From: an uncultured Desulfobulbaceae bacterium
Lineage (GTDB): Bacteria; Desulfobacterota; Desulfobulbia; Desulfobulbales; CALZHT01
Length of the DNA stretch: 48,201 nucleotides
Direction of reading: 5' to 3'
Assembly: GCA_945787445.1 (NCBI GenBank)
Contig: CALZHT010000010.1
Span: 1-48,201 of the forward strand
Position 1 is the first letter of the stretch; every line of letters starts with the position of its first letter. Made by a program: the position numbers and the translations under genes. The notes under the pieces were generated by a model. That model was not told the DNA's origin and searched no databases. It saw only the letters and a program-made list of their open reading frames with translations. Shown piece by piece: positions 6,300 to 42,697 of the stretch.

Positions 6300-6301
6300 T
6301 T

Positions 6302-7204: not shown

Positions 7205-7206
7205 AA

Positions 7207-10223: not shown

Positions 10224-10251
10224 TAGTCCTTAAATTAATAATTTAAGATTA

Positions 10252-12331: not shown

Positions 12332-12397
12332 TGCGCCATCCTGTATAAAGGATAATTCCTCATGTTCTGAAAAACTAGTAGAGAGTGGTAAAAAATT

Positions 12398-25231: not shown

Positions 25232-27085
25232 TCAAACTGAAAAAAAATTCTTTCCCGCCAGATTATGGCGAAGTCCTGAATCACGACTGATTCTGGCCCT
25301 TACCGCCTCTGCGAAAATATTCCTCTTTCCCCAGACCTCCACTGTTTTTTTAGCCCTGGTCAGCGCAGTGTATACCAACTCCCCGGTCAATACTTTTGAC
25401 ATTCTGTCAGGAAGAATGAGGAGAACATGGTCATACTCGGAACCTTGACTTTTATGGACGGTGACAGCATAGCTGACTTCATGAGGTGGAAGCCTGGCCG
25501 GTGCCAATTTCCTCAGGGCCCCGGCTGCCCCTGCAAAGTAAATCCTTAATTGGCCGGCCGAATCAGGATCTGGAAAAAATATACCGGTATCCCCATTATA
25601 GAGGCCAAGATCGTAATTGTTTTCAGTTATCATTATAGGTTTACCCTGATATATCCCTGAAACGCTATTGATCAAGCCTTCTTTTTTCAAAATCTCCATA
25701 ACAATCCGGTTAATGGCATTAATGCCATAAGGCCCATGACGTAAAGCGCCCAGTATGCTGAAATTATGTAAAGATAATAAAACATCCTCGGCAGATGTAA
25801 GGCTTGAAAACCCGGCAAAATGTTCCAATACCTTTGGCCTGAGCATTTCCTGCAATCCCGCCGGTGATGGCGACAATTCCCGGAAGGCAAGATCTGCGTA
25901 ATCTCCTCTTTCAAGCAGAGATAAAGCCTCTTCCCATTTGCCTTCAACAACAGCAAGACCGACCGCGCCGATGCCGCTTTCTCTTCCAAATCTGTAGCTT
26001 TTTTGCAGCGCGACGATTGAGTCGCAGTAGTTACTTTCCATGACACGAACATCCGGCACAAAAGATTCACCGGTAATGTCACGGACGTCGGCTATAAATT
26101 TTTCAGAAAATGTCTTGCTGCATTGTTCCGCACAGACATCGCCAAGTACCGATCCCGGCTCAACAGAAGCTAACTGGTCACGATCGCCTAGCAATATCAA
26201 GCGGCATTGGGCAGGAATTGCATACATCAATTTAGCCATCAACGAAAGGTCTATCATTGAAGCTTCATCCACCACCACCACATCAGCAGGTAATGGATTT
26301 TCATGGGTATACAGAAATGATTTGGAAAGAGGCTGATAGCTTAGGAGGCGGTGTACTGTCGAACCTTTTACCGGTATGATTTCCTTGATTCTCTTTTCGC
26401 AAGCCAGATCAGCCTTTGCGGCATGAAGGGCTTCCTGCAGCCGGGCCGCTGCTTTACCTGTGGGAGCGCTGAGTAAAATGCGCAGAGATTTTCCCTCGAC
26501 CGCGGCCTGTTCAAGGAGTAAGGCGAGAATCTTGGCCACGGTGGTAGTTTTCCCGGTTCCCGGACCGCCGGTAATCAAGCAAAACTGCCTCGTTGCAGCT
26601 GCCAGCGCCGCAATTTTCTGCCAATCCGTCGTGTCGCTTGATGACGGAAAAAGTCGGTCCACACTTAGAGCAAGTCTTGAAAAATTACTATCATTTCCTA
26701 TCTTCCCGCCACGTTTAAGAATGAAATTGCCAACGTTTTTTTCATACTCCCAGTAGCGGTGGAGATACAACCTGGGGTGGGAGAAAATTAAAGGCTTGAA
26801 TTCACCCGGTCTTCCAACTACTCCGCTACGGGTAAGAGTTTCCACCCACGCCTTAAGTTGGGGACAAATTACATCACTGTCCCCTTCCTTGAGTTCATCC
26901 GGCAGAGATCTACCGGATAACATCTCTAAATTTACGCATGCATGGCCTTTCCCAGTATAGTTACTGACAAGGGCAGCACCCAGTTCAAGTTCTGCAGAGG
27001 GCTGCTTTGCCAACCGCAGTAAAAAATCAACAAAATGGCGGTCAAGCGGGGTGAGTTTTATACAAGAGAGTATTTTTTTTTCCAT
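25232..27085 (-). CDS. recD: Exodeoxyribonuclease V alpha subunit (RecD helicase)
   Basis: RecD is the 5'-3' superfamily 1 helicase of RecBCD, used in double-strand break repair and degradation of linear foreign DNA. Visible motifs are Walker A TGGPGTGKTTT (near residue 172), VVDEASMIDL (about 270), LLGDRDQLASVEPG, VTVHKSQGSEYDHV (about 543) and YTALTRAKK (about 573). Length is 617 residues, close to E. coli RecD. The ATG at 27085 has only a weak ribosome-binding site. It stands alone, about 12 kb from recB and recC, on the same strand. Confidence 0.93.
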   Translation of the reverse strand: MEKKILSCIKLTPLDRHFVDFLLRLAKQPSAELELGAALVSNYTGKGHACVNLEMLSGRSLPDELKEGDSDVICPQLKAWVETLTRSGVVGRPGEFKPLIFSHPRLYLHRYWEYEKNVGNFILKRGGKIGNDSNFSRLALSVDRLFPSSSDTTDWQKIAALAAATRQFCLITGGPGTGKTTTVAKILALLLEQAAVEGKSLRILLSAPTGKAAARLQEALHAAKADLACEKRIKEIIPVKGSTVHRLLSYQPLSKSFLYTHENPLPADVVVVDEASMIDLSLMAKLMYAIPAQCRLILLGDRDQLASVEPGSVLGDVCAEQCSKTFSEKFIADVRDITGESFVPDVRVMESNYCDSIVALQKSYRFGRESGIGAVGLAVVEGKWEEALSLLERGDYADLAFRELSPSPAGLQEMLRPKVLEHFAGFSSLTSAEDVLLSLHNFSILGALRHGPYGINAINRIVMEILKKEGLINSVSGIYQGKPIMITENNYDLGLYNGDTGIFFPDPDSAGQLRIYFAGAAGALRKLAPARLPPHEVSYAVTVHKSQGSEYDHVLLILPDRMSKVLTGELVYTALTRAKKTVEVWGKRNIFAEAVRARISRDSGLRHNLAGKNFFSV

Positions 27086-27856: not shown

Positions 27857-28252
27857 ATGCCAGACTACATTTTAACATCTGAAATCCTGAATAAAGCGAG
27901 TGACATTCTCGTCAACTCCCTTATCAACGCGGGGGTCAGGACTGTTCTCCTTATTGACAGCGCCGGGAACATACTGGTGAACTGCGGCCAGGAATCGGAA
28001 GATGTTGATTCCATATCATTAGCAGCACTGGCGGCTGCAAATCTTGGTGCCACTTCTCAGATGGCCAAGCTCATTGGGGAAGATGATTTTTCCCTTCTTT
28101 TCCACAAAGGTAAAACCGGGAACATTAACTTTGGCCGCATCGGCAACGATCTCATCCTTGTAACAATTTTTGGGGAAGAGGTTTCTTTGGGTTTGGTACG
28201 TTGTAGAATCACAGACATTTCGGAATCCATCCGGAAGATATTTGAAGGATAA
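27857..28252 (+). CDS. Roadblock/LC7-domain protein, MglB-like
   Basis: This is a 131-residue single roadblock (LC7) domain protein with pattern VRTVLLIDSAGNILVNCG, then SLAALAAANLGATSQMAKLIGE and a C-terminal helix. In Myxococcus the MglB roadblock protein is the GTPase-activating partner of MglA. The ATG at 27857 has AGGAG eight bases upstream; a TTG at 27809 is rejected. It is the first gene of a six-gene operon and is followed 2 bp later by an MglA-like GTPase gene, the canonical pairing. Confidence 0.9.
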   Translation: MPDYILTSEILNKASDILVNSLINAGVRTVLLIDSAGNILVNCGQESEDVDSISLAALAAANLGATSQMAKLIGEDDFSLLFHKGKTGNINFGRIGNDLILVTIFGEEVSLGLVRCRITDISESIRKIFEG

Positions 28253-28254
28253 TC

Positions 28255-28878
28255 ATGGCAATAATCGATCTCAGCAAGCGGGAAGTACATTGTAAAATTG
28301 TCTATTACGGACCCGGGAGATGCGGCAAGACCACCAACCTGCTCTACATATATAATGCGATGAATAGTGAGCATAGAGGGAAAATGATCACTATTGATAC
28401 CAAGGGTGACCGCACCCTGTTTTTTGACCTGCTTCCCCTGAACCTGGGGAAAATACGAGGATTCAACATCCGCATCCAATTATATACCGTGCCTGGTCAA
28501 GTGATGTATGCCGCCACCCGAAAACTTGTTCTTAAGGGAGTGGACGGCTTGGTTTTCGTTGCTGATCCCCTGAAAGTACGCAAGGAAAGAAACATTGAAA
28601 GTTTGGCAGACCTGGGCCGGAACCTTGAAGAGTACGATCTTAAATTCGACGAGATGCCTTTGGTCTTGCAATACAATAAAAGAGATCTGGTGGATACGCC
28701 GGTTCCAACAATGTCTGTTGATGAACTTACAGAGGATCTCAACAAGGAATTGAAGATTGAAGCATTTGAAGCCATCGCAGTAAAAGGAACAGGTGTTTTT
28801 GAAACACTCAAGGAAATCAGCAAACAAACCGTACATCACGTGGCAACCAAGCACTTACTCAACAAACAAAATCCTTAA
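28255..28878 (+). CDS. MglA-like small Ras-family GTPase
   Basis: The 207-residue product resembles Myxococcus MglA closely by eye. The start SKREVHCKIVYYGPGRCGKTT carries the P-loop at residues 19-27. TKGDRTLFFDLLPL, LYTVPGQVMYAATRKL (G3), GLVFVADP and QYNKRD (G4) follow. The family has a PG-x-CGKTT P-loop, seen here with Arg. MglA switches between GTP- and GDP-bound states to set cell polarity and to control type IV pili and gliding. An AAGGA sits six bases before the ATG. The neighbouring motor ATPase and roadblock genes support a similar polarity or motor-control role. Confidence 0.93.
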   Translation: MAIIDLSKREVHCKIVYYGPGRCGKTTNLLYIYNAMNSEHRGKMITIDTKGDRTLFFDLLPLNLGKIRGFNIRIQLYTVPGQVMYAATRKLVLKGVDGLVFVADPLKVRKERNIESLADLGRNLEEYDLKFDEMPLVLQYNKRDLVDTPVPTMSVDELTEDLNKELKIEAFEAIAVKGTGVFETLKEISKQTVHHVATKHLLNKQNP

Positions 28879-28932
28879 TCCTTTATTATAATTTCAAATC
28901 GATATAATGAAGCAAACGACAAGGAGACCAGG

Positions 28933-30456
28933 ATGACCAAGAAAGACGCCCCCAGCATTGATGATTTGGCCTTTGAAATTGAAAGTGCTGTTGAGGATCT
29001 TTTTAGCACCTACGACCAGATTGAAATAGATCCGGAAACCAGTGAAGTAAAGGAAGCTTCTGCCACAGTACCGGAAGTCGATACCAGCCTCGATAAAACT
29101 ATGGAGGAAGAAGCAGATATCGATTTAGGTGAAGAAGAAATTCTCCAACTTGAAGATGATGTTCTAAGCCAGCTCAATCATTCCCTCCATTCGCTGGAAT
29201 GGGAAGTAACACCAAAAAACATCACCAATGCCAAAGGAAAGCTGGAGAATTTTCTTGCCGACTTCCAATTTGAAAATCCTGAAGAGATGCAAGTTCTCGT
29301 GGGCCTTATGCAATCAGTCCTGCAGGCGATGGAGGAAGTCCCGCAACTCACGCCAACCTTTGCTCCAAAAGCGCTCAAAGATGCGGTCACATTCTTTATG
29401 GCTGTTAAAAATGATGAACTTGGTGAAGACATCCCAACCCTTGAAATGGTGAAAAAAGACCTTCAGGCTGCCATGCCCCAGGAGCAACCGGAACCTCCCT
29501 CATTAGAAATTGAGCGTGAGGTTGATGAAAGTAAAGAAGAAGCACAAGAACCAAGGCCCGAATCACCTGACACAGTTGCGGAAGAGAAAGCGCCAGAACC
29601 AGCCGAAGTTCAACCGAAAGAATCCAAGAAGATACATACCGTAAAAGAAACTGCAAAAGTAGAGATAAAGGAGACGGAAAAGGCCAAAGAACCTTTTTCC
29701 CCTGCCACCATTCCACAAGAATTGCCCGAAGGATTTACGAAATTGCTCCAAGCTCATATTTCCATGCTTGATCAGTGCGTCAACAGGATTCATCCCTTGG
29801 AAAACCTTTTTGCAAGAACCCCTGGATATGGAAAATTGCATGTAATTAATAAAAAATTACGAGAACAGCTTGAAATTCAGAAAGATTCCCTTGTCCGGGC
29901 TCTGAAGGGAGATTACCGACATTACCCTTCCTATCTCGGCAACCAGCCAATCCAAAGTGTCAAAGTCAATAGCACCGCAAGCACGGCATCGTGCCCTTGG
30001 TCCACTTTAGCAATTGCCCAATGGAAGGAGAAAATTGTTGCTTTCGTTCCTGACCAGATAGCCTATGTTGGTGAAATAAAAGGAAGTGAAAAACTGCAGA
30101 GCCAAAAACTCTTCCCTTTGGCAAAGTTAAAGGCATGGCCATGGAGCAAACTTCAACCATTGATCTCAGGAGAACTTGCAGAAAAAGACGAGAGGACACT
30201 TGCGGGTTTCCAGCTTCCTTTCCTGCAACATCCGTGGATTTTCCAGGCCTTTACCGAACCGAATGCTGCTGAAATAGTAATTATCCTTTTTCACAAGGAA
30301 AATGGCGCGGTAACACTTCTCGACACACCGGTTGAAGAAATCACCGTATCCAGCCAGTGGGCATGGGAACCATCCGACAGCAGCGGGACCTTCCTTGCGG
30401 GACACCTCAATGTATTTGGTGAGTACATTCCGGTTGTTAACCTTGAAGAACTCTAA
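28933..30456 (+). CDS. Acidic adaptor-like protein with CheW-like C-terminal domain
   Basis: The 507-residue product has three parts. Residues 1-75 are very acidic. Residues about 75-165 form a predicted helical segment (SLHSLEWEVTP to AVTFFMAVKN). Residues 170-265 are a Glu/Pro/Lys-rich linker. Residues about 268-345 look helical. The last about 150 residues look CheW-like: LAIAQWKEKIVAFVP at the start, a GAVTLLDTPVEEI strand pair and an ending FLAGHLNVFGEYIPVVNLEE. CheW domains dock receptors and CheA-type kinases, so this may be a scaffold for the GTPase module. The CheW assignment is by eye and moderate. Its TAA stop forms the first bases of the inverted-repeat element that follows. Confidence 0.7.
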   Translation: MTKKDAPSIDDLAFEIESAVEDLFSTYDQIEIDPETSEVKEASATVPEVDTSLDKTMEEEADIDLGEEEILQLEDDVLSQLNHSLHSLEWEVTPKNITNAKGKLENFLADFQFENPEEMQVLVGLMQSVLQAMEEVPQLTPTFAPKALKDAVTFFMAVKNDELGEDIPTLEMVKKDLQAAMPQEQPEPPSLEIEREVDESKEEAQEPRPESPDTVAEEKAPEPAEVQPKESKKIHTVKETAKVEIKETEKAKEPFSPATIPQELPEGFTKLLQAHISMLDQCVNRIHPLENLFARTPGYGKLHVINKKLREQLEIQKDSLVRALKGDYRHYPSYLGNQPIQSVKVNSTASTASCPWSTLAIAQWKEKIVAFVPDQIAYVGEIKGSEKLQSQKLFPLAKLKAWPWSKLQPLISGELAEKDERTLAGFQLPFLQHPWIFQAFTEPNAAEIVIILFHKENGAVTLLDTPVEEITVSSQWAWEPSDSSGTFLAGHLNVFGEYIPVVNLEEL

Positions 30457-30617
30457 TGTCGTGTCAAGCGAGAAATGTCGCAAGATTGCGAAGTAATTTG
30501 ACGTGCCAACAAGGCGCGGCTGAAGGAGCATAGCAGCGCTATGTGACTGAAGTCGCAACGCAGTTGGCGCAGCAAAGGACGAGCAAGATGCGTCAGTTGG
30601 CGCTTGACACGACATTA
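30454..30617. mobile_element. MITE-like element with perfect 17-bp terminal inverted repeats
   Basis: TAATGTCGTGTCAAGCG at 30454-30470 is repeated as an exact reverse complement at 30601-30617. Both outer ends are TA, which fits a TA target duplication of IS630/mariner type. The centre has a hairpin CATAGC-AGC-GCTATG (30529-30543) and an AACAAGGCGC segment. No open frame of note is present, so the 164-bp element is non-autonomous. It sits between two operon genes otherwise separated by 54 bp or less, and it supplies the stop codon of the upstream gene. Confidence 0.7.
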
Positions 30618-30642
30618 GTAAAATAATAAGAGCATAAGTGCA

Positions 30643-32988
30643 ATGTACCAGGCAAATAATACGGAAGATTTAGAAACAAAGCTTACCGAGGCCAAGCTTT
30701 ACGAGTCTCATGGCCTCGTCAAGGAAGCGGCTACGGTTTATAAGGAATTACTCAAAAATATCGATTCCCAGCAAAATCCTGAACTTCACGCAAAAGTTGA
30801 AACCCTTCTTGGCAACCTCGGACCCACTGACATAGAAGGTGCTGTTCATTTTAGCCAAAAAACATCATCTGTTCTCAAAAAAGAAGCCACTGTTGAGGAT
30901 CAATATGACACCTGCCTCGCCCTCATCGAGGCGGGTTTTCACAATGAGGCAATTGACGAACTCAATCTCCTCTTTGATTCTGACCTCCCTCCCCATGCCA
31001 TTCATGCCAAAACAGGTGAATGTTATCTTTGCCTCGATAAGCACTATGAGGCGATTGAACACTTAGAAAAAGCGATCACTGATACAAATCTGAAAAACAA
31101 TGATGATCGGCTGGATATCTTTGACCGACTGGCGATTGCCTATGAAAGTATCGGGGGGTTCAAGTCTGCCATCAACGCCCTCGAACAGATGGTCCGCATC
31201 AGTCCGGACTTTCGGAATGGTTCAGAACGGCTGCAAAACCTCACTAAAACAGCAAAAAACTTTGGCAGATTTTCGTATCTTGTTCGGAAAAAATTGCTAT
31301 CAGTCGAGGATCTTGAACAGGCAAAAGGCCTTGCCAAGAAAGCAGACAAATCCGTTGATACCGTACTTCTCAACGAACTCGGGATAGAAAAATCCCAACT
31401 GGGAAAATCATTAAGTGAATACTACCGATGCCCCTTTGTAGAATTTCAGGAAGCTGAAATCGGCAGTGTCCCCTCCTGCATCCAAGGAATTAAGGAGAAT
31501 TTTTTTCGCGTCAACAACTGTATTCCCATTAGTGAGGAAAAAGGCAAACTTATCATTGCGACCAATAATCCATTCGACATGGTGAAAACCGACAATATCA
31601 GGATGATCACCAAGGCCGCCGATTTCACCTATGCGGTTGCCGTTAAAGAAGATATTGAAAAATATATTGACTATTATTTCGGCAAGTTTGCTCTTGGAGA
31701 AGAGACGGAAGAAGACCTTTTTGAACAGCTTGAACTCGTCGAAGAGCTAGAAGAAGAAATAGAGGATGAAGTAAGGAGCCAACACGCTGAAGGCGTGGTT
31801 GTAAAGATGGCCAACAAAATCATTGAAGATGCCATCAAACAGAAGGCCTCAGACATCCACATCGAATCGCTCGCAGAAAAAAAAGGCACCACGGTGCGAT
31901 TCCGGGTTGACGGCGATTGTGGCCATTACAAGAATATTCCTCATCAATATAAGCGGGCCCTGGTTTCCAGACTCAAAATCCTAGCCAAGTTGGACATCTC
32001 TGAAAAAAGACTCCCCCAGGACGGCAAGATCAAGTTCCGCACAAAAAGCCGAAAAAACATCGAATTGCGCGTCGCAACCATCCCTACTGCAGGGGGATTT
32101 GAAGATGTCGTAATGCGTATATTAACTGACACCAAGGCCCTTCCCATTGACAAGATGATGCTCCTTCCGCATAACATAGAGCATTTCAAGCAAATGCTTG
32201 AAATGCCTTATGGTCTGATCCTTGTGGTAGGACCGACAGGCTCAGGTAAAACCACCACACTCCATGCTGCCCTTAATCATATCAATAGGCCGGACAGGAA
32301 AATCTGGACAGTAGAAGATCCGGTGGAAATTGTTCAGGACGGCTTACGGCAAGTTCAAGTGCAACCCAATATCGATCTTACTTTTAACAGGGTTTTGAAG
32401 GCATTTCTAAGGGCTGATCCTGATGTAATTATGGTTGGGGAAACGCGGGATGAAGAAACAGCAAAAACCGTTATAGAGGCTTCTCTTACCGGACACCTTG
32501 TTTTTACGACATTACACACAAATTCCGCACCCGAGACCATAACACGACTTTTAGGAATGGGAATAGAGTCCTATAGTTTTGCCGATTGCCTCATTGGTGT
32601 CATTGCACAGCGGTTGGTAAAACAGCTCTGCCCCAAATGCAAAGAAGCGCACATGCCGGATAAGCTTGAAAAAAAGACAATTCTTAAAGAATACGGTCCG
32701 CATGCCTTGATATCGCTGACTGCCGATTCCTTCAAAGGTGCCACGCTCTATAAGCCTAAAGGCTGCGGTCATTGCAGCGGCTCTGGATACAAAGGAAGAA
32801 TCGCCATCCATGAAATGTTGAAGGTCGACGATGACGTGAAAAGACTTATTGAAAAAAACAAACCCGCCTCTGATATCAGAGATCAGGCCCAAAAATCAGG
32901 TATGTTGACCTTGAAACAGGATGGTATTCATAAAGTTCTGATGGGAGAAACGGATTTCAAACAGGTACGAGCAGCTTGTATTAAATAA
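30643..32988 (+). CDS. TPR-MshEN-PilB/GspE-type secretion/pilus ATPase
   Basis: This 781-residue protein is a type II secretion/type IV pilus motor ATPase with an added N-terminus. Residues about 1-200 contain TPR-like helices (for example EAGFHNEAIDELNLLF, DKHYEAIEHLEKAI). Residues about 206-340 match the MshEN/GspE_N domain. The ATPase core has SDIHIES, FRVDGD, the Walker A GPTGSGKTTT (about 530), an Asp box (WTVEDPVEI), Walker B (DPDVIMVGETRDEET, about 590) and a His box (TLHTNSAPETITRL). A zinc site CPKC/CGHC lies at about 664-707. No pilC, pilT, prepilin or secretin gene is nearby. Fusion to TPRs and its place after mglBA-like genes suggest regulated assembly. The start is the ATG at 30643. 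Confidence 0.93.
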   Translation: MYQANNTEDLETKLTEAKLYESHGLVKEAATVYKELLKNIDSQQNPELHAKVETLLGNLGPTDIEGAVHFSQKTSSVLKKEATVEDQYDTCLALIEAGFHNEAIDELNLLFDSDLPPHAIHAKTGECYLCLDKHYEAIEHLEKAITDTNLKNNDDRLDIFDRLAIAYESIGGFKSAINALEQMVRISPDFRNGSERLQNLTKTAKNFGRFSYLVRKKLLSVEDLEQAKGLAKKADKSVDTVLLNELGIEKSQLGKSLSEYYRCPFVEFQEAEIGSVPSCIQGIKENFFRVNNCIPISEEKGKLIIATNNPFDMVKTDNIRMITKAADFTYAVAVKEDIEKYIDYYFGKFALGEETEEDLFEQLELVEELEEEIEDEVRSQHAEGVVVKMANKIIEDAIKQKASDIHIESLAEKKGTTVRFRVDGDCGHYKNIPHQYKRALVSRLKILAKLDISEKRLPQDGKIKFRTKSRKNIELRVATIPTAGGFEDVVMRILTDTKALPIDKMMLLPHNIEHFKQMLEMPYGLILVVGPTGSGKTTTLHAALNHINRPDRKIWTVEDPVEIVQDGLRQVQVQPNIDLTFNRVLKAFLRADPDVIMVGETRDEETAKTVIEASLTGHLVFTTLHTNSAPETITRLLGMGIESYSFADCLIGVIAQRLVKQLCPKCKEAHMPDKLEKKTILKEYGPHALISLTADSFKGATLYKPKGCGHCSGSGYKGRIAIHEMLKVDDDVKRLIEKNKPASDIRDQAQKSGMLTLKQDGIHKVLMGETDFKQVRAACIK

Positions 32989-33000
32989 AGGAAACTTCAG

Positions 33001-34212
33001 ATGAAAAATGTCTTGTTTGTGGATGATGACCAAGGCTTCTTATTGAGTTTGCTGGATATGATAAATGATGCCGAGACTAAGGAGCCTTTTGCTATCATAA
33101 CCGCAAATAATGGAAAAGAAGCCATAAAAACCCTCAAATCCCAACCTGTCGACCTCGTTGTCACTGATATAAAAATGCCCGAGGTGGACGGCTTTGACCT
33201 GGTAGCACATATAAGCAAGGAGCATTATGACATTCCAGTCATTGTCATGACTGCTTATGGAACTCCGGAAATGGAAAACAGCCTGCTGGATATGGGTGCC
33301 TTCCAGTATATTGAAAAACCAATTGATTTTAACATGCTGATCAAAAAGATATCAGATGGCTTAAACGCGGGCTCCAAAGGATACATAGTCGGCATTTCAC
33401 TGCCCTCATTCATGCAGCTCATCCAGCTCGAAAAAAAAACCTGCACCCTCACCGTGGAATCACAAGGAAAAACCGGCAAACTCTTTTTCCAACAAGGAGA
33501 GCTGACTAACGCCATTACCGGGGACCTGGTCGGTCAGGACGCGGCAATGGAGATTTGCTGCTGGGACCAGACAAAGATTGAAATTATCTCCATTTGTAAA
33601 GATAGAAAACGTGAAATAAACGTACCCCTGGGCTTCATCTTGATTGAAAGCGCCCGCTTAAAAGATGAACGGCAAGAAAAAGAACTTGCCGCACCTGAAA
33701 AAGACTCAGCCCAGGAACCACAAGATACGATTAGCAAAGAGGAAGAAGCCATTGATTCTCTTGATTTTGACGTCAAGCATTCCGATGCAGCTGGTGAAGA
33801 GAAGCAAGAAACTGTTGAAGGAACAACAGAGGAATCCTTGCCATCGGAAATCAGCCTGGAGCCTGGTGCTGAAATTAGTGATCTCGACCAATTGATCACT
33901 TTTCTGCAGTCAGCCGCAGGGATACGAAAAATGATTATTATCTCAAATGATGGCAAAGTACTCTCCAAAAAAAATATCATAGTGAAAAGATTCGGCAATT
34001 TTGTCGCCTATGCCGCCGCGGCAACGGACCAGTTAGGTATCGGCCTTGGACTTACCGAACCGCAGCACATTATTATGAACCAGAATACGGAGAGACAACT
34101 GCTCATTTTGCCCGGATCTCATATTACTGTTGGGATTGAACTTAAAAACAATGTATCTCCGGAGCCTTTCAGTGACAAACTCTTGAAAGCTGTTCAGGAT
34201 ATCAGTTGTTGA
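33001..34212 (+). CDS. Response regulator with PATAN (DUF4388) and roadblock-like domains
   Basis: The 403-residue protein has a receiver domain (about 1-122) with DDD (8-10), phospho-acceptor Asp56 in VVTDIKMP, the Thr of VIVMTAYG and Lys of IEKPID. Residues about 128-225 match the PATAN/DUF4388 type: GISLPSFMQLIQLEKKTCTL and GKLFFQQGELTNAITGDLVG. An acidic linker follows, then a C-terminal roadblock-like domain (about 295-403) with IRKMIIISNDGKVLSKKN. PATAN receivers in related bacteria and in cyanobacteria act in motility control. GGAAA lies upstream of the ATG, 12 bp after the ATPase stop. It is likely the phosphorylation input of the module. Confidence 0.87.
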   Translation: MKNVLFVDDDQGFLLSLLDMINDAETKEPFAIITANNGKEAIKTLKSQPVDLVVTDIKMPEVDGFDLVAHISKEHYDIPVIVMTAYGTPEMENSLLDMGAFQYIEKPIDFNMLIKKISDGLNAGSKGYIVGISLPSFMQLIQLEKKTCTLTVESQGKTGKLFFQQGELTNAITGDLVGQDAAMEICCWDQTKIEIISICKDRKREINVPLGFILIESARLKDERQEKELAAPEKDSAQEPQDTISKEEEAIDSLDFDVKHSDAAGEEKQETVEGTTEESLPSEISLEPGAEISDLDQLITFLQSAAGIRKMIIISNDGKVLSKKNIIVKRFGNFVAYAAAATDQLGIGLGLTEPQHIIMNQNTERQLLILPGSHITVGIELKNNVSPEPFSDKLLKAVQDISC

Positions 34213-34240
34213 CCACGTATATTCACGCGAAGAGGAAAGA

Positions 34241-34981
34241 ATGGACCAACTATTTATAGAACTCAAAATGATCCCGGGCATCACGGGATCATTTATCTAT
34301 ATCGACAAATCAGGTGTAGGCTACCATGATTTGCCTGAAAAATATCGCGACAAAGCATTGAATAAAATCGGACGTTCCATTGATAGGATATTTACCTTGA
34401 ACGAGACTTCAAATCTGGATGTTAACAGTGTTGAAGCCAGGTTTAATGAAGCAATTGTATTTATCAGGCAAGTTGATCACGGCTCCTGCCTGGTTACCCT
34501 TTGTGAGCCTGACACCAATATGTCATTGGTCAAAATTACCGTTGACATGCTTCTTCTCGACCTGAAAAGCGCTGTTGCCTCAGCTCGAGTTTCACCTGCC
34601 CCGTTGAAGAAAGCGGAAAAACCGCCAATTGAAAAAACGGTGGAGGAAAAAGCACCAGAGCTCGAAGAACCGGACCAACTTATTCTGCAGGAAGATGCGG
34701 CAACCGAAGCTATAGAAACAACAGTAGCAGAAACAGCTATTGAGGAGGCTGAGGAAGATAACAGGTTGCCGGGAATTTTGGATTATTTTAAGGACACATT
34801 GACCCGGACCATAGGCCCTATCGGCAAGTTGATTATGGCTGAGGTCCAAGAAAAGTGGAAAGAAGAAGGCGGGGCTTCACAAGCGAGGCTTGAGGACTTG
34901 ACCAAAATGCTTTGCGAGGAAATAAACAATAAAAAACTGGAAGCTGGGTTCCGGGAGAAAGTGAGCGAGTATCTTAAATGA
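34241..34981 (+). CDS. Second roadblock-like protein with helical C-terminus
   Basis: The 246-residue product begins with a roadblock-like domain (about 1-110): IPGITGSFIYIDKSGVGYHDLPE, a long helix, then AIVFIRQVDHGSCLVTLCEPD. A Pro/Glu/Ala-rich acidic linker (115-180) leads to a helical end (about 182-246: ILDYFKDTLTRTIGPIGKLIM). This end resembles C-terminal segments found on some bacterial signalling proteins, but I cannot name it firmly. GAGGAAAG lies before the ATG. It is the last gene of the operon. With 27857-28252 and the end of 33001-34212 it makes three roadblock-like domains in one operon. Confidence 0.75.
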   Translation: MDQLFIELKMIPGITGSFIYIDKSGVGYHDLPEKYRDKALNKIGRSIDRIFTLNETSNLDVNSVEARFNEAIVFIRQVDHGSCLVTLCEPDTNMSLVKITVDMLLLDLKSAVASARVSPAPLKKAEKPPIEKTVEEKAPELEEPDQLILQEDAATEAIETTVAETAIEEAEEDNRLPGILDYFKDTLTRTIGPIGKLIMAEVQEKWKEEGGASQARLEDLTKMLCEEINNKKLEAGFREKVSEYLK

Positions 34982-35033
34982 CATTCCCTGAGGCCCTATA
35001 AACGTGTTCTCTTTTTATTCCGAATTGAAATAA

Positions 35034-36332
35034 TTATTTTCTAGAAGGCACTTTCCTGTCAGGCCCATAATAGACAATAATCGGCCTGGAGGGATCAATC
35101 TTAAATTCATCTATGGCTTCATTTTTTTTATTTTCAGCCCGCCGGCTGGCGATCTGCTTTTGGTCCTCTGTATCAGATGTTTTCCTGGGTACTGCAAGCT
35201 TCCTAAATCGTGCCTTCCTTTGCGATTCACTCCGCAAGAATTGGGAGAACTTATTTACCCGTTCATCCTGCTGTTGTGAGAACAAATCCGCACTGTTTGG
35301 CATTGGCCCTTGCAACTGTATGGGTGGCCCTCTTTTTACCGATGCAACCACAACAGGTTTTGGTTGAGGTTTTGATTCAACGGCCTTTGCAGGAACCGGT
35401 TTCTTTTTAACAGTAGCCACCTTTTTGGGTTTAGTGGTTGTCTGAACTGGAGATGCTTTAGCCTGCTTTACCTGAGTAGGCTTGATAGGTGGAACCGGAG
35501 GCTTTATTACTTTTTTCTTAGCAACTTTCACAGGTGGCTTGGCAGCCGGCTTGGGTTTGGCTGCGACCTTCTTCGCCGGAGTTTTCATTTTTGCAGGGGC
35601 TTTAGCCTTTTGAACGGTTTTTGCCGGCTTGACCGTTTCGGGCTTCTTAGCAACCTTTGCAGCAGCTTGCGGTCTTTCAGGCTTCTGTTCTTTTTGAACT
35701 TTTGAGGGCGTTTTAGGCTTTACGGCTTTTTTACCTTTTTCAACGGGTTCTGTTTTCGCTTTCTGCACAGAGGTAGCAACCTTTTGTTTTTCCTCAACCT
35801 TTGCGACTTTCACAGGTTCAGGCTTAACAAGTTTTGCCGGTGGTTTTGGCTCGACTTTTGGCGGGGCAGGAGGTGTCACTGCCGCTTTCGTAACCGTTTT
35901 CGGCTTCGGCACCCCGCGCAGTGTAGCGAGGGTATTTTGGGCTCTTTCGTTTTCAGGATCAAAACGAAGCCCCTTTCCATAAGCATCGATGGCAGCGGCT
36001 TTGTTGCCTAAAACCTTATACACATCACCAAGACCGAAATAATATTTTGCCGCCCTGGTGTTAAGACGGACTGCATTCTGATAATATTGCAACGCATCCT
36101 CATATTCCCTCAATCTTTCAAGAATATACCCATACTGGAAATTGATCTCAGCGTGTTGAGGACAAGACTTTATGGCCTCCCGCAAAATTTTACGGCGTTT
36201 CAAAAGGCGTCTCTCGCCCTTGGCCTGCGCCAGAATGGCCTCACAGTCAGCCGCACGAATAGATTCAACTGCCATGGGCATAGCGGCTGTAAACACAACA
36301 AAAAATGCCAAAAACCATACAATTTTTTTCAT
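35034..36332 (-). CDS. Secreted TPR protein with Lys/Pro/Ala-rich low-complexity region
   Basis: The 432-residue protein starts with a signal peptide (residues about 1-27: MKKIVWFLAFFVVFTAAMP, cleavage near IRA-AD). Residues about 30-135 hold two or three TPR units (INFQYGYILERLREYEDALQYY, YYFGLGDVYKVLGNKAAAIDAY). Residues about 140-345 are a Lys/Pro/Ala/Val-rich repeat tract like TonB-type or cell-wall-spanning linkers. The end is a mixed charged region. The ATG overlaps the stop of the heme sensor gene as ATGA, so the two are translationally coupled. Export into the periplasm is supported; function is unknown. Confidence 0.85.
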   Translation of the reverse strand: MKKIVWFLAFFVVFTAAMPMAVESIRAADCEAILAQAKGERRLLKRRKILREAIKSCPQHAEINFQYGYILERLREYEDALQYYQNAVRLNTRAAKYYFGLGDVYKVLGNKAAAIDAYGKGLRFDPENERAQNTLATLRGVPKPKTVTKAAVTPPAPPKVEPKPPAKLVKPEPVKVAKVEEKQKVATSVQKAKTEPVEKGKKAVKPKTPSKVQKEQKPERPQAAAKVAKKPETVKPAKTVQKAKAPAKMKTPAKKVAAKPKPAAKPPVKVAKKKVIKPPVPPIKPTQVKQAKASPVQTTTKPKKVATVKKKPVPAKAVESKPQPKPVVVASVKRGPPIQLQGPMPNSADLFSQQQDERVNKFSQFLRSESQRKARFRKLAVPRKTSDTEDQKQIASRRAENKKNEAIDEFKIDPSRPIIVYYGPDRKVPSRK

Positions 36333-37210
36333 CTGCTTTGTCGCTTTAACATTTTATCCATACTGATCCGCAATCTATCAATTGATTGCGCCAGCGAACC
36401 TATCTCATCCTTATTGGCGGTTAATTCGATAGGGGTTTCTAAATTGTCTCCAAGGCTTATTTCTTCAGTTCTTTTGGAAAGAGCAAGAATCGGTGAAACT
36501 ATGGCTGAATTAAGAAAAAACCAAATTCCCAATAATGCCAAGGTAAGAATCCCAATACCAGTAAGAAAAATGACCATTGCCGACCATGTTACAGAAGCCA
36601 GGGCCTGCTTCATGGGGATGTATATCACATCTGCGGACAAAATATCCCCCATCTTCCAGTGATAGCCGCTTTCAGTGCCGTAAATTTCCACCTGGTCTTT
36701 GGGGGCTTTCTTTGGATCGCCATGACACCTAAGGCATTGGGTTGAATCCACCTTGATGGGTTTAGCCAGGAAAAAATATTTTTCCCCTTCTCTCTTGAGA
36801 ATTCCTTCGAGTCTGGTGAGATCTTGGTTTTCTTGAAAATTTTTTATGATGGTTGTCTCGGATTCATTAGCCTTATTGGAAGGCAACAAGGGATTTAAAG
36901 TCGCCTGTTTGAATTCATAGCCCGGCAGATCATCCTTCAAGAGGTCCCATGTTTCCTTAACAATGACGAACTCGGACATCAACTCAGGATAAAACCGGTC
37001 TTCCTCCAGGATCTCATTTATTAATGGCCGCTGTACATCATGGAAATATTTTCTCGAGGAAACAATGTAGTTGGCAATGAGCTGTCCTTTGTGCTTTGCT
37101 TCATCCATGGCGTTATTCATGCTGAATTTATAACTTGCCACACCCAGCACTAGCATTGCCAAAGCAACAAGACAACCTATGACAGAAACAAACTTTAACC
37201 GAATTCCCAT
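36329..37210 (-). CDS. Membrane sensor with Tll0287-like (DUF3365) heme c domain and HAMP, no output domain
   Basis: The 293-residue product has a membrane helix at about 8-26. A periplasmic domain (about 30-205) carries a single heme c-binding motif CLRCH (about 158-162) in the family context PKDQVEIYG and GYHWKMGDILSADVIYIPM. A second helix lies at about 208-232, and a HAMP linker to about 290. The protein then stops: no kinase, cyclase or methyl-accepting domain is attached. It is thus a redox- or ligand-sensing subunit that needs a partner. The ATG at 37210 is followed by a typical basic-hydrophobic start. It is coupled to the downstream TPR gene. Confidence 0.88.
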   Translation of the reverse strand: MGIRLKFVSVIGCLVALAMLVLGVASYKFSMNNAMDEAKHKGQLIANYIVSSRKYFHDVQRPLINEILEEDRFYPELMSEFVIVKETWDLLKDDLPGYEFKQATLNPLLPSNKANESETTIIKNFQENQDLTRLEGILKREGEKYFFLAKPIKVDSTQCLRCHGDPKKAPKDQVEIYGTESGYHWKMGDILSADVIYIPMKQALASVTWSAMVIFLTGIGILTLALLGIWFFLNSAIVSPILALSKRTEEISLGDNLETPIELTANKDEIGSLAQSIDRLRISMDKMLKRQSR

Positions 37211-37253
37211 AGTATTTCAGCATCCTCCAATCAACAACAAATAAAGTGGCTCA

Positions 37254-37436
37254 TAAGAGCCTGTCGGATTACTCCATTTTACTACGATTGGCTGCAAATT
37301 TCGTGTTCTGCGTTACCAAACTCAAAATCTCCTCAACATAGCTACGGCTATGCTTCCGGGGATTCTGAGTCTGTTGCCTTGTTCACAAAATTTTCGCTCA
37401 ATCTCATGACAAATTGAGTTCTCCGACAGGCTCCTA
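37254..37436. mobile_element. MITE-like element with GAGCCTGTCGGA ends
   Basis: GAGCCTGTCGGA (37257-37268) and its exact reverse complement (37422-37433) border a roughly 183-bp element. Including the flanking bases the arms match at 14 of 15 positions and end in TA. The centre has a CATAGC-TACG-GCTATG hairpin (37337-37352), and the reverse strand has GAACAAGGCAAC. The plan matches the element at 30454, although the terminal sequence differs. It separates the histidine kinase gene from the heme sensor gene. The rest of this 373-bp gap shows nothing notable. Confidence 0.65.
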
Positions 37437-37583
37437 AGTGTACATTGAGAAAATATTAATAAAACAAACTAGTTCAGGGTAATAACTTTGTCAAGAAGGA
37501 TCAAACCCAAACCAAAGGACAAACATGAACCATCTGATCCGGTGCGAACAACCTTGCTAAAAAGGGTTTCATCTCTTTGCTAA

Positions 37584-38687
37584 TCAGCTGACCGCTGATA
37601 GCTGTTCTTCGGATGCACCAATAATCCTCGGAATAGTCAGGGTAACGCTTGTTCCCGTTCCTTTCTCACTGCATACTTCTATGCTTGAATTCATCTGGGC
37701 TAACATTTTCTTTGAAATCACCAATCCCAACCCCGTTCCATCAGGCTTTGTAGTATAGAATGGCTTAAAAATATCTGCGAGTAATTCTTCGTCCATCCCA
37801 CAGCCATTGTCACTTATGCAAAGCCTCACCACGTTGTCATCACTGAAACTTCTGATGGTCAGGGACGGCTCAATTACGAATTCCATGGCATCTATGGCAT
37901 TGACAATAATATTCATAACAACATGCTGAAGGACCCGTGCATCAGCATTGACCATCCGGGCTTCCAGGGGCAGGTCGACAAAAACGTCAATTTTCTTGCT
38001 GCTGATTTGCCCTCCGATCAACTGCAAAAATCCTGCAAAGAAATTATCCAGGTCCAACGGTACAGTATGCGGCATCTCAAACATACTGAAATGCTTGAAG
38101 GATTTGAGAAGCACTTCCAATTTAGTGATTTCTCCAAAAATCCTGTTGAAATACACTTCCCGTTCATCTGCAGAATATCTATAAACATTATTTCTCAGGA
38201 CGGTAAGCGCCATCTTGATGGAATTAAGGGGATTGCCTATTTCGTGCCTGATCGCTGAGAAGACATACCCTATATTATTCATCATTTCTGTAGCTTCATC
38301 AATGGAATCCAGGCGGATCCTGTCGGTAATATCCCTGATCAACACTAAGATGAAGCGATTGTCGTCTTCAGAACGGTAGATACTGTAACCAAGCACCCGG
38401 TGCTCAAAAATTTTCTTTGTTCTGGATCTTCGGCTTGTCCCTGTTTTTTTTTGCTCCTCAATTTCAGGACCCAATAGGGAATATAACCTTTGAAAGCTGG
38501 TTTCCTCCTTCACACTTTTGAAAATCTTTTCAGCATGCTTGTTTTTAAAAAATACCCTCTCGTTGCCAAGATCAAGAATAATGATCCCGGTATTGATTTT
38601 CTCCATTATTTCAAAAAAAATACACGCCTTTTGGTCACCAAAGGCATGGGAACACTCTTTAAATATTTCCGAATCCATTACGGGCAT
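37584..38687 (-). CDS. Soluble PAS-type sensor histidine kinase
   Basis: The 367-residue product has a PAS-like N-terminus (about 20-120: INTGIIILDLGNERVFFKNKHAEKIF, then RFILVLIRDITDRI). A HisKA domain has the phospho-acceptor in IRHEIGNPLNS (about 148). The HATPase domain has an N box (NIIVNAIDAME, about 262), a G1 box (ISDNGCGMDEEL, about 294) and a G2 box (GTGLGLVIS, about 319). No membrane segment is present. The ATG at 38687 has AAGGAAAA about nine bases upstream; an ATG three codons later is possible. No response regulator gene is adjacent. It may work with the kinase-less heme sensor just downstream, an inference from proximity. Confidence 0.9.
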   Translation of the reverse strand: MPVMDSEIFKECSHAFGDQKACIFFEIMEKINTGIIILDLGNERVFFKNKHAEKIFKSVKEETSFQRLYSLLGPEIEEQKKTGTSRRSRTKKIFEHRVLGYSIYRSEDDNRFILVLIRDITDRIRLDSIDEATEMMNNIGYVFSAIRHEIGNPLNSIKMALTVLRNNVYRYSADEREVYFNRIFGEITKLEVLLKSFKHFSMFEMPHTVPLDLDNFFAGFLQLIGGQISSKKIDVFVDLPLEARMVNADARVLQHVVMNIIVNAIDAMEFVIEPSLTIRSFSDDNVVRLCISDNGCGMDEELLADIFKPFYTTKPDGTGLGLVISKKMLAQMNSSIEVCSEKGTGTSVTLTIPRIIGASEEQLSAVS

Positions 38688-39025: not shown

Positions 39026-42000
39026 TTACCTTGTTGTTTGGATTTCAGGAACGTAAATCTCCCCTGTTGACAGCCATAGAGATAATTCAGCAATCAACCT
39101 TTTGTCGGGAACATCATGAAATACGCCAAATTCCGGTCCCTTATCCTTATCTATGCCGCGTAAAAATAAATAAAACACCCCACCGAAGTATTTTTCATAG
39201 CTATAGTCTTTTATCCTCGTCATCAGATATTGGTGCACCGCAACCACATAAATATGGTATTGAAGAAAATATAACTTTTTCTGCATCACCCTTTGCATTT
39301 GTTTGTGGCTGTAATCCTCATGTGTATCCCCCAGAAAGTTCGACTTCCAGTCAATCACGTAATACCGCCCCTTGAATGCAAAGACCAGATCCACAAAACC
39401 TTTCATAAAACCGCCAACCTTCCTGAACCGGATTTCTCCCAGCTCGTCAGCAAAAGCCTGATCTTTTTGTGTTCTTGGATAACGGTGGAATATGCTCTGC
39501 AAAGCGTTGGGATTTACCGGTGCCACAGGGAAATAGAATTCCAGCTCTGACATTCTCTGGCCTGATTGTATGGCAGACAAGGTAAAATCGGCATCATCAT
39601 GGATAAGGGGCGTATGTATAACGTTATCAAGCATTGTGTCAATGATAGAATGCCATGATGGATCAAATCCATGCGTAGTAAGCTTTTCCCTGATAAGCTC
39701 CTTATGCTTACTATAGTAATAATTGGAAAAATCAAGGTGCTCCAGAAGGTCATGCATAAACGTTCCTGCCCGAGCGCCTTTGGGGAAAGAAAAAATGTTT
39801 TGCCGGTTGCCTTTGGGGGGTTGCTCTCCTCCTTCCAGGATTTCGGCAGCACCGTCTAAGGCGTCATAATCCGGAGAGTCTGCATAACGGCGGCCTTGCA
39901 CCATTGATGAAAAACTGGTTATCCGCCAATTATCAACAATACTTCCCGAAAAATCGGGGCAGGAAAGATGAACGACCTCACCTACACTATCTCTTCTCCT
40001 GGAAATCAACGGCACATCCTTGATTTTTTTTAGCGCTATAGAATCTCCGGAAGAGTTGACGAGCCGGAGGAGATCTGCAACCATTTCATCATCAGTAAGT
40101 CCTTTGACCCGCGCAACTGTAGACTGGACTGTCTGTTCAGGAACAGCATCCTTTTCCTGATGAAACAAATAGCTAGGCGCAGAGGATTCGCACCCCTTAA
40201 AGGCCCCCCATATCATGTAACAACAACTTGATGCCCGGGTCAGGGCTACATAAAACAGGCGCAAGCTTTCAGCAAGCTCCTCTTTAAAGGCTATCTCCTG
40301 ATGCCGGCTATATTGCGAAGATCCCAAATCAACAACAAGCCTTGTGCTGTCTGCTGCGTCATGGAATATGGCAGGCGCAAGGGTCTTCGTCTTTTTACTG
40401 CCTTGTTTTTTCGGTATGCCCCCCCAGACAAAAGGGCAAAAAACCACCGGGTACTCGAGCCCTTTCGCCTTATGGACAGTTACGATCCGGACACATTCCC
40501 GGTCGCTTTCAAGCCTTAGAAGATGTTCATCATCCTTGTCATCGTGCATGCTTATTTTTTTACTGAGATAAGACACCGACGCAACCATCCCAAGACGCCT
40601 TTCAATAATCGCCCGGTGCAACACTTCGGCAAGGTGCAAAACATTGGTCAATCTGCGCTCACCGTCGGGAAAGGCAAGAAGTCGCTCCCGGACGCGCTGC
40701 GCGGCAAGCAGGGATCGAAACATTCTGATAAAGCCATGTTCCAGCCACATCTCATGATAGTGCCGGAAGACAAGAAGCCACTCCTGCCAGAGGGCCTCGT
40801 CTTCAACCATCCTGTCAAGAGATTCGCCATCCACTCCTAAGATATCAGTGGCCATGGCTGCTTTTAGCCGCCGTTCCTTAGTTGGTTCGGCAAGGGCCCA
40901 TAGCAAACGCTCAACTTCTTCTGCTTCATGGGAACCAAAAAGACTTTCCGCACTATGGACTATACTTACTATGCCCAGAGCAGCCAAAGTTTTCTGCATG
41001 AGGCGCGCTTCACGATTTTTTCGAACCAACACTGCCAGGTCTTTTGCCTGCAGGGGAGCCTTACCGATCAGAACGTTGCCTTTCCTTGCCATATCAAGCA
41101 GTTTTGCTATTTCCGCCGCAGTAATTTCCGCTGCCAACGAGTTGGCAGTATCCTTTTTAATCTGTTCGGTTTCCCCTTTGGTAATGTATTTTTCCCGCGC
41201 CACAAACCAAAGCTGGAAAGGATCTTTTTGCTTGCCGTTAATAAAGAGAAGAGGAAAGGACTTTTCCGTAGCAGACCTGACAGGATCAAAGGGAATCTCC
41301 TCATAGAAAAAAGGGTGGTCGGCATTGGAAAAAACCGTATTTACCGCGGTGACAAGCTCCGGTGCTGACCGCCAATTTGTCTCAAGAGTGGTCCTGGTCC
41401 GGACCTGACGGGTGGCTTCCATATAGGTGAACACATCCGCGCCCCTGAAGCTGTAGATTGCCTGCTTCGGATCACCTATCAAATAGAGAAGGCATCCTTC
41501 TCCCCGGTATATGGTTGAAAATATTGCATACTGGACCGGATCCGTGTCCTGGAACTCATCTATCAGGGCGGCTTTATATTTGTTCCTGACGGCCCTGGCA
41601 AGATTTTCCCCTCTCGCCTCCTTTAAGGCGTTATGCACCTGGTATAAAAGATCATCAAAGGAATAGACATTCTGCATTTTTTTTCGAGCGGGGAATTGCT
41701 GCCGGGCAAAATTGAATAATTCATTTTTAAGATATAGCACCAGGACATCAAAGGCTGATGCGAGTTCATCGCGGGCGTGCTGCAACGATTCACAAAGGTC
41801 AAAAAAGAGATGCGCCGGCGCATTGTGCCCTTGCTTCATACTTTGCTTTATTGCAGACGCAGTAAATTTTGTAAAAGAGTCGAAAATATGAAGCACCGGC
41901 CGATTCACGGCCAGAAGCGCATCCATTGCCTGCAGCCAATTGGCCACACTGTTTTTTCTATATTTCCCCTTATGTAATCCCTTATCGTGCAATAGGATGT

Positions 42001-42697
42001 CCATTACCTCATCACGCGCTTCAGGCCAGGCCTTGCATACCTTGCTGAAGATATGGCCGTATGACCCTTCAAGAGCTTTGCAGCTAGTACCGACGGCCTT
42101 GTCAACTTCCGGGATGATCTTCAGGTCCGGCCGGTGAAAATGGTTGCCCAGGAGCTTCATGAGATTGCCTTTTGAAAACTGGTTCCGGCAATACTCAATG
42201 AAGAGGGGGGAGGCCTGGTAGAAGTTCCTGCGGAAAAAGTCCACGGCCACTTCCTCTGCCATGTATCCCTCCAAATCCGTAACAAGTTCGGAATCAAAGA
42301 ATGCACCGCTTTCAAGGCCGAACTCCAAGAGGATCCTCTGACAGAAACCGTGGATTGTATAAATGGCAGCCTCGTCAAAGCACTGAAGCGCCAGAAGGAG
42401 TTTCTGCCGAGCTTTGCTGAGATCTTTACCATCAAGAATCTTTTTAGCAAATCCCGGCACGTCACCGCCCGCACCATGAAGATACACCTGCCGTATCGCC
42501 TCCCTGATCCGGAATCGCAGATCCTCTGTGGCGGCCTCGGTATAGGTGACAACCAATATATCGCTGATGGCCAGGTCTTTTTCCAATAAAAGCCGCAGCA
42601 CCAAACCGGTGATGGTAAATGTTTTTCCCGTGCCGGCGCTTGCATCGATCAACCCGACACCGGACAGGGGACTGGAATACAGATCAAAGGGCTTCAT
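39026..42697 (-). CDS. recB: Exodeoxyribonuclease V beta subunit (RecB helicase-nuclease)
   Basis: RecB is the 3'-5' helicase and nuclease subunit of RecBCD. Superfamily 1A motifs are Walker A DASAGTGKTFTITG (about 18-31), LIDEFQDTDPVQ (about 380), YLIGDPKQAIYSFRGAD, VTVHKAKGLEYPVV (about 735) and RLFYVALTRAS. The C-terminal nuclease domain shows GFVDLVF and VIDWKSNFLG (about 1114), which carries the catalytic Asp and Lys of the DxK motif, followed by the QLxxY-like LQYHIYVVA. At 1223 residues it is full length. Its ATG overlaps the recC stop as ATGA. Confidence 0.95.
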   Translation of the reverse strand: MKPFDLYSSPLSGVGLIDASAGTGKTFTITGLVLRLLLEKDLAISDILVVTYTEAATEDLRFRIREAIRQVYLHGAGGDVPGFAKKILDGKDLSKARQKLLLALQCFDEAAIYTIHGFCQRILLEFGLESGAFFDSELVTDLEGYMAEEVAVDFFRRNFYQASPLFIEYCRNQFSKGNLMKLLGNHFHRPDLKIIPEVDKAVGTSCKALEGSYGHIFSKVCKAWPEARDEVMDILLHDKGLHKGKYRKNSVANWLQAMDALLAVNRPVLHIFDSFTKFTASAIKQSMKQGHNAPAHLFFDLCESLQHARDELASAFDVLVLYLKNELFNFARQQFPARKKMQNVYSFDDLLYQVHNALKEARGENLARAVRNKYKAALIDEFQDTDPVQYAIFSTIYRGEGCLLYLIGDPKQAIYSFRGADVFTYMEATRQVRTRTTLETNWRSAPELVTAVNTVFSNADHPFFYEEIPFDPVRSATEKSFPLLFINGKQKDPFQLWFVAREKYITKGETEQIKKDTANSLAAEITAAEIAKLLDMARKGNVLIGKAPLQAKDLAVLVRKNREARLMQKTLAALGIVSIVHSAESLFGSHEAEEVERLLWALAEPTKERRLKAAMATDILGVDGESLDRMVEDEALWQEWLLVFRHYHEMWLEHGFIRMFRSLLAAQRVRERLLAFPDGERRLTNVLHLAEVLHRAIIERRLGMVASVSYLSKKISMHDDKDDEHLLRLESDRECVRIVTVHKAKGLEYPVVFCPFVWGGIPKKQGSKKTKTLAPAIFHDAADSTRLVVDLGSSQYSRHQEIAFKEELAESLRLFYVALTRASSCCYMIWGAFKGCESSAPSYLFHQEKDAVPEQTVQSTVARVKGLTDDEMVADLLRLVNSSGDSIALKKIKDVPLISRRRDSVGEVVHLSCPDFSGSIVDNWRITSFSSMVQGRRYADSPDYDALDGAAEILEGGEQPPKGNRQNIFSFPKGARAGTFMHDLLEHLDFSNYYYSKHKELIREKLTTHGFDPSWHSIIDTMLDNVIHTPLIHDDADFTLSAIQSGQRMSELEFYFPVAPVNPNALQSIFHRYPRTQKDQAFADELGEIRFRKVGGFMKGFVDLVFAFKGRYYVIDWKSNFLGDTHEDYSHKQMQRVMQKKLYFLQYHIYVVAVHQYLMTRIKDYSYEKYFGGVFYLFLRGIDKDKGPEFGVFHDVPDKRLIAELSLWLSTGEIYVPEIQTTR

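Follow-up and report, generated by a model that had tools for sequence, protein, structure and literature searches.

A fixed four-gene core, in which genes for an MglB-type roadblock protein and an MglA-type Ras-like GTPase are followed by a scaffold gene and a gene for a PilB-type ATPase fused to TPR repeats (TPR-PilB), is present in Desulfobacterota. We describe it from a 48,201-nucleotide stretch of DNA of an uncultured Desulfobulbaceae bacterium (the window, which here means the stretch at its full length), where it opens a group of six genes on the + strand at positions 27857-34981. The conserved gene set suggests that in these sulfur bacteria the GTPase switch acts directly on the motor building the pili used for surface movement. 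On balance we favour the reading that the module forms a self-contained unit controlling the extension of type IVa pili, in which MglA-GTP would dock on the TPR region fused to the motor. A wider proposal, put forward more tentatively as a possible one, is that a type IV pilus motor is under the direct control of a GTPase of the Ras family, which docks on TPR repeats fused to the motor, with a core that accepts either a CheA or a two-component front end and takes the place of control by cyclic di-GMP (c-di-GMP).

The mglB-mglA-scaffold-ATPase core

An earlier note on this DNA had listed six same-strand genes at this position. All six open reading frames (ORFs) were found intact on the + strand, separated by gaps of 2, 54, 186, 12 and 28 bases, and they are conserved in relatives. 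Pfam assigns them, in order, to Robl_LC7; Arf/Ras; no family; TPR, MshEN and T2SSE; Response_reg and DUF4388 (PATAN); and no family. The pairing of an MglB-like with an MglA-like protein is borne out by both products. The first gene, mglB (27857-28252, +), encodes a roadblock/LC7 protein and predicted GTPase-activating protein (GAP) of MglA, which matches Robl_LC7 at 44.3 bits (cut-off 23) and the NCBIfam MglB model at 53 bits, under its 200-bit cut-off. It is the only Robl_LC7 match above cut-off in the window's own genome. The second, mglA (28255-28878, +), encodes a Ras-like GTPase which matches the solved Myxococcus xanthus MglA at 3e-62 in phmmer.

Both proteins are well conserved within the module, with a mean column identity of 72% for MglB (10 loci) and 75% for MglA (11 loci). 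The MglA P-loop GPGRCGKTT, R53, Q82 and the NKRD motif are invariant in the alignment of 11 module loci. Residue 22, within the P-loop, is Arg in 11/11 module MglAs and Leu in M. xanthus (GPGLCGKTT). An MglA match at E < 1e-40 was obtained in 213 of the 395 genomes searched within the phylum; identity to the window copy is 69-76% within the module and at most 67% outside it. Judged by these sequence comparisons, the module MglA is a separate subfamily.

Searching the same 395 genomes with gene 3 gave 22 matches, mostly in the same gene order, and a scan across 84,980 species genomes, in which the N-terminal portion of the ATPase served as query, led to the identification of 59 loci. The named ones are all Desulfobacterota (Thermodesulfobacteriota), and the others carry metagenome-assembled genome labels such as 'Deltaproteobacteria' or 'Proteobacteria bacterium'. 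Desulfurivibrio sp. AMeS2 is among the carriers in culture. Comparison of gene order in other Desulfobacterota had been proposed as a check, and it revealed a complete mglB-mglA-gene 3-ATPase core in 47 of the 49 loci with sufficient upstream DNA. mglB adjoins mglA in all 47 complete loci, and mglA and the ATPase gene are in every case separated by the scaffold gene. Such recurrence across many families is far beyond chance. The stated lack of pilus genes nearby was confirmed within the window and extends to the relatives, where platform, secretin, PilT and pilin genes are absent from the examined flanking DNA of all 59 loci; an ATPase gene that sits in a pilus cluster with the GTPase genes elsewhere was found at none of them.

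The TPR-PilB ATPase and its probable role in pilus extension

Gene 4 (30643-32988, +) encodes, as claimed, a pilus/secretion ATPase bearing TPR repeats. Pfam recognizes the N-terminal TPR region, an MshEN domain (47.2 bits) and a T2SSE domain (408.3 bits), the last above its curated cut-off. Walker A, Walker B, the His-box and the zinc-cysteine pairs are conserved in an alignment of 19 homologues, and hence the loss of Walker or Asp-box residues, named as a sign against the proposal, is not seen there. The protein scores 514.3 bits on the canonical PilB model TIGR02538, below the cut-off of 675.65, and 425 bits on the TfpB model with its cut-off of 850; NF053729 gave no match. The 24-residue c-di-GMP motif of MshEN is degraded in 55/55 TPR-PilBs scored, which retain 5-7 of 11 positions, as compared to 9-11 of 11 in three other ATPases of the window's genome. 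It appears from these alignments that TPR-PilB has lost the c-di-GMP motif and that its N1 domain has diverged. In a tree of the ATPase domain, the TPR-ATPases form one clade (99/98), with an ATPase on contig 93 of the window's genome and that of locus L134 as sister group. The contig-93 protein (L049 13817-16138, -) is a PilB-type ATPase of 774 amino acids with 47% identity to the window ATPase over the last 580 residues; it has a different N-terminal extension and is linked neither to mglA nor to a platform gene. A plasmid search with the ATPase returned generic ATPases only, none spanning 80% of the query. At locus L131 (Thermodesulfatator autotrophicus S606) the TPR-ATPase is split into two ORFs (9998-11428 and 11464-12342), either by an assembly frameshift or because the gene is broken.

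The most informative genome for the role of this ATPase is G269, a single contig with 100% completeness, in which the module ATPase is the only PilB/GspE-type ATPase. The same genome encodes two PilT, one PilC, one secretin, PilM and pilins, and since no other PilB/GspE-type ATPase accompanies PilC, secretin, PilM and PilT, pilus extension there should be driven by the TPR-ATPase. In G155 there is just one other assembly ATPase, encoded together with a platform and a secretin of its own, and the TPR-ATPase should likewise be the pilus-extension motor. Of the two possibilities raised earlier, one being a polarity switch for pili whose genes lie elsewhere and the other an ATPase put to a new use, the sole-motor status in G269 and the presence of a type IVa pilus elsewhere in the window's genome favour the former. 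These pilus parts are PilM and a secretin on contig 31, PilC on contig 89 (closest to the Myxococcus-type model), PilT on contigs 13 and 7 and PilB on contig 12. The description of the ATPase as a lone one holds for the locus but not for the genome, which has seven assembly ATPases, four platforms and two PilT; the TPR-ATPase would be a second extension motor here. Another of these ATPases, on contig 23 (L048 6719-8548, +), is TfpB-like (628 bits, below the 850 cut-off) and adjoins a gene for a protein of 1807 amino acids which looks PilY1-like by eye.

Several points weigh against the favoured reading. The contact of MglA with the TPR region is something we infer, and any likeness of this region to the MglA-binding repeats of the M. 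xanthus protein SgmX is putative. The two exceptions to the complete core are loci with a module-type ATPase but no core around it, L118, which falls within the clade, and L134, which belongs to its sister group. In the window's genome the TPR motor has company, since the contig-12 ATPase scores as a canonical PilB (764 bits against 675.65 on TIGR02538), and most of the module genomes examined have another assembly ATPase. This company of a canonical PilB or another assembly ATPase also fits the view that the TPR-ATPase has ceased to be a pilus motor and serves as a hexameric scaffold, or as an NTPase driving the dynamics of MglA or of the sensory complex, in the regulation of gliding, flagella or general polarity. 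The absence of linked pilus genes at the 59 loci and the diverged N1 domain point in the same direction. Nevertheless, we regard such a conversion as improbable because the motor motifs, zinc-cysteine pairs included, are conserved, and because G269 lacks any other assembly ATPase and yet has PilC, secretin, PilM, PilT and pilins.

A role in type II secretion or in an MSHA-like system is less credible still, and we consider it very improbable. T2SSE scores alone cannot separate these uses, and the window's genome does have such systems on contigs 64, 37 and 5. However, their assembly ATPases are each paired with their own platform, and G269, with one secretin and one platform, has no separate type II secretion system, on which ground the ATPase was rejected as an MSHA or type II secretion motor.

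The scaffold and the exchangeable inputs

Gene 3 (28933-30456, +) had been described as a CheW-like adaptor, and this is supported by fold prediction and not by the sequence tests. An AlphaFold2 model was made with 41 homologues (mean pLDDT, the predicted local distance difference test score, 77; most structured parts above 90) and is predicted to contain a P1-like bundle (residues 73-184), a helical hairpin (266-324) and a CheW/CheA-P5 fold (353-507). In the predicted model, residues 73-184 superpose on CheA P1 with a VIA Z of 10.8 (root-mean-square deviation, rmsd, 2.9 over 104 residues) and residues 353-507 on CheA P5/CheW with a VIA Z of 10.5 (rmsd 3.0 over 119 residues). The first 18 rows of a Foldseek search with the model are CheW or CheA chains only (best E 1.9e-4). 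For the P1-like part the match is one of helical bundles, for which a Z of about 10 is not decisive; the modelled CheW match appears stronger. Searches with PF01584 (CheW) gave no match for the window protein and one among the 41 homologues (E 0.018), and other sequence tests for CheW failed to give a usable match. No HATPase (P4) domain was matched in the Pfam searches, and no conserved His was found in the P1-like part, well-conserved His residues being present only at positions 275 and 303. Gene 3 is therefore read as a CheA/CheW-derived scaffold which probably has no kinase activity.

The core is joined to one of two input modules, which are mutually exclusive; no locus has both. At the 21 type-A loci a CheA gene is linked divergently to the core, as a rule together with CheY, three CheB-like proteins with a receiver domain (REC), one of them with PATAN, and an HDOD protein. 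The 15 loci of type B, to which the window belongs, have genes 5 and 6 after the ATPase, and at the 13 of them where the far side is sampled, genes for a TPR protein, a CxxCH-bearing Tll0287-HAMP sensor and a histidine kinase come next without exception. In the ATPase-domain tree, type B groups as a single clade (18 rows, 100/99), and consequently the input swap was probably a single event. That the core stays unchanged when its front end switches between the CheA and the two-component type shows which parts form an inseparable unit.

Gene 5 (33001-34212, +), the REC-PATAN gene, was claimed to encode a receiver-PATAN-roadblock protein. Response_reg and DUF4388 are both recognized by Pfam, and the phospho-acceptor D56 is invariant in an alignment of 15 sequences, as are D8, D9, T84 and K106. 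The C-terminal roadblock is weakly backed: Robl_LC7 matches 4 of 15 homologues (best E 0.0038), and hhalign against MglB gives an E of 0.065. Gene 6 (34241-34981, +) likewise fits its description as roadblock-like in predicted fold and not in sequence searches (hhalign E 0.36; none in Pfam; none in PDB). Its AlphaFold2 model, with a mean pLDDT of 74, consists of a roadblock domain followed by a disordered linker and a C-terminal domain of four helices. Residues 1-117 of the model superpose on M. xanthus MglB with a VIA Z of 14.7 (rmsd 2.0-2.1 over 114-115 residues), and the match to an Asgard roadblock reaches 15.7. Gene 6 is thus predicted to have an MglB-type roadblock fold.

The six genes are real, but the unit extends beyond them. 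Three convergent genes (35034-38687) had been overlooked in the earlier note, and the same neighbourhood is found in 13/13 related loci which retain that side. Since the TPR protein, haem sensor and kinase lie beyond gene 6 in 13/13 type-B loci, the unit in the window is taken as 27857-38687. The TPR protein (35034-36332, -; Pfam TPR) has a basic linker and a sub-cut-off OmpA-like C-terminus (16.7 bits), and is a conserved neighbour in the 13 type-B loci and in no others. The Tll0287-like protein (36329-37210, -; 121.8 bits, with HAMP) is a candidate input sensor, whose CxxCH haem motif is present at 13/13 type-B loci. The histidine kinase (37584-38687, -; HisKA and HATPase_c in Pfam), with 46-59% identity across these 13 loci, is a candidate kinase for REC-PATAN.

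In type A, the three REC-CheB-like paralogues beside CheA (L057 2867-6496, -, and equivalents in 17 loci) have degraded catalytic centres. The catalytic His region is unconserved in the consensus of all three groups, for which a role as methylesterases was rejected, and neither a CheR gene nor a receptor gene could be recognised next to them; they therefore look like effectors rather than methylesterases. As a chemosensory cluster this set of genes is unusual. Extra HDOD-linked genes at L072, L075, L128 and L131 were rejected as module members; on visual inspection they resemble dsrA, dsrB and dsrD.

Taken together, these parts allow a mechanism to be proposed. MglA would act as the switch, with MglB as the protein that activates its GTPase. 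MglA-GTP would bind the N-terminal TPR region of the extension ATPase, alone or with the scaffold, and through this docking the motor would be recruited to the base of pilus machines whose genes lie elsewhere, while MglB would switch MglA off where the motor should stay idle. The scaffold, CheA-P1-like and CheW-like without a kinase domain, may couple the complex to sensory signals. For the lineage of the window, these would come from a membrane sensor that binds haem and from the histidine kinase, which would phosphorylate REC-PATAN; the second roadblock protein may adjust GAP activity, and both this protein and REC-PATAN phosphorylation would tune the MglA-motor complex. Other lineages would use the CheA/CheY system, the three REC-pseudo-CheB effectors and the HDOD protein as input. 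The fusion of the TPR region to the motor, in one operon with mglA and mglB, is a classic gene-fusion hint of interaction.

It could also be that the TPR-ATPase is a pilus extension motor on which MglA and MglB act indirectly, its TPR region binding the scaffold or REC-PATAN instead. The constant position of the scaffold gene between mglA and the ATPase gene would suit this arrangement, as would the reported binding of PilB by PATAN-REC proteins (PMC7690835) and the two extension motors known on one pilus in Acinetobacter baylyi (PMC8213720). However, the MglA subfamily and the ATPase stay together across families when the input genes are swapped, which places this pair in the constant core, and the M. 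xanthus precedent for an MglA-TPR contact is direct. We therefore find indirect action unlikely and retain docking of MglA on the motor as the favoured explanation.

Between genes 3 and 4 lies a near-perfect hairpin (30455-30616, no strand assigned) of 162 bases with 16-bp perfect terminal arms (z -9.5) and no Rfam match. In contrast to the window, the corresponding interval is just a short gap at most related loci, and the hairpin probably represents a repeat element that has inserted into the operon, outside the function of the module. The arm sequence is also present on one viral contig (L218). On one side of the module the window carries recD (25232-27085), and on the other recB and recC (39026-45906), all on the - strand, so the module seems placed inside the recCBD order; recD likewise adjoins the module at L127, the nearest relative. 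Further genes of the window encode a nickel-dependent hydrogenase large subunit, a 4Fe-4S protein and HypF (4210-8247 and 13330-15600), and an AAA_14 and DUF4143 ATPase (46465-47859).

Comparison with known systems

The nearest known system is the M. xanthus pathway of MglA, MglB, SgmX and PilB (PMC7519303, PMC11580455), in which MglA-GTP binds the TPR protein SgmX, and SgmX is required for PilB at the leading pole. Both systems have a Ras-like MglA, a roadblock MglB, a TPR region between MglA and PilB, and response-regulator as well as chemosensory inputs. However, SgmX is a separate protein with 14 TPRs and the M. xanthus parts lie in no single gene cluster, whereas in the window the TPR region is fused to the motor and the genes form one cluster together with a kinase-less CheA/CheW-like scaffold. 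The route from MglA to the pilus motor is still to be settled in Myxococcus, no SgmX-PilB contact having been detected in M. xanthus (PMC11580455). The presence of TPR region and motor in one polypeptide beside mglA makes this missing link testable with a few purified proteins.

Cyanobacterial PATAN-REC proteins (PixE; Tax systems; PMC7690835) share the combination of PATAN with a receiver, a pilus-extension ATPase as proposed target and a chemotaxis-like input, and Synechocystis PixE is cited there as binding PilB1. In the window, by contrast, the receiver precedes PATAN, a possible roadblock follows it, and MglA and MglB are encoded in the same cluster. Acinetobacter TfpB (PMC8213720) likewise accompanies canonical PilB as a second PilB-type ATPase of distinct phylogenetic position, but the window ATPase carries TPRs, adjoins an mglA module and reaches only half of the 850-bit cut-off of the TfpB model (425 bits). 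MshE and canonical PilB under c-di-GMP control (PMC11656802) have the same MshEN-T2SSE architecture and differ in that the motif is degraded in the window ATPase.

A survey of MglA neighbourhoods (PMC4316618) reports, in the passages available, PATAN-domain genes occasionally near MglA/MglB genes; these passages contain no TPR-PilB or CheW-like scaffold and mention PilB once, for SofG. A 2024 review of PilB cofactors (PMC11656802) makes no mention of MglA, TPR or PATAN. No earlier description of the arrangement of TPR-motor, scaffold, GTPase and exchangeable input was found in the open-access literature, subscription papers and preprints lying outside the search. If our reading is true, MglA control of pili extends to a broad range of sulfur-cycling Desulfobacterota, thermophiles included. 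The parts themselves are known, and their arrangement, with a fused TPR-motor, a kinase-less scaffold, a GTPase pair and exchangeable inputs, can be regarded as a variant of MglA-controlled type IV pilus extension.

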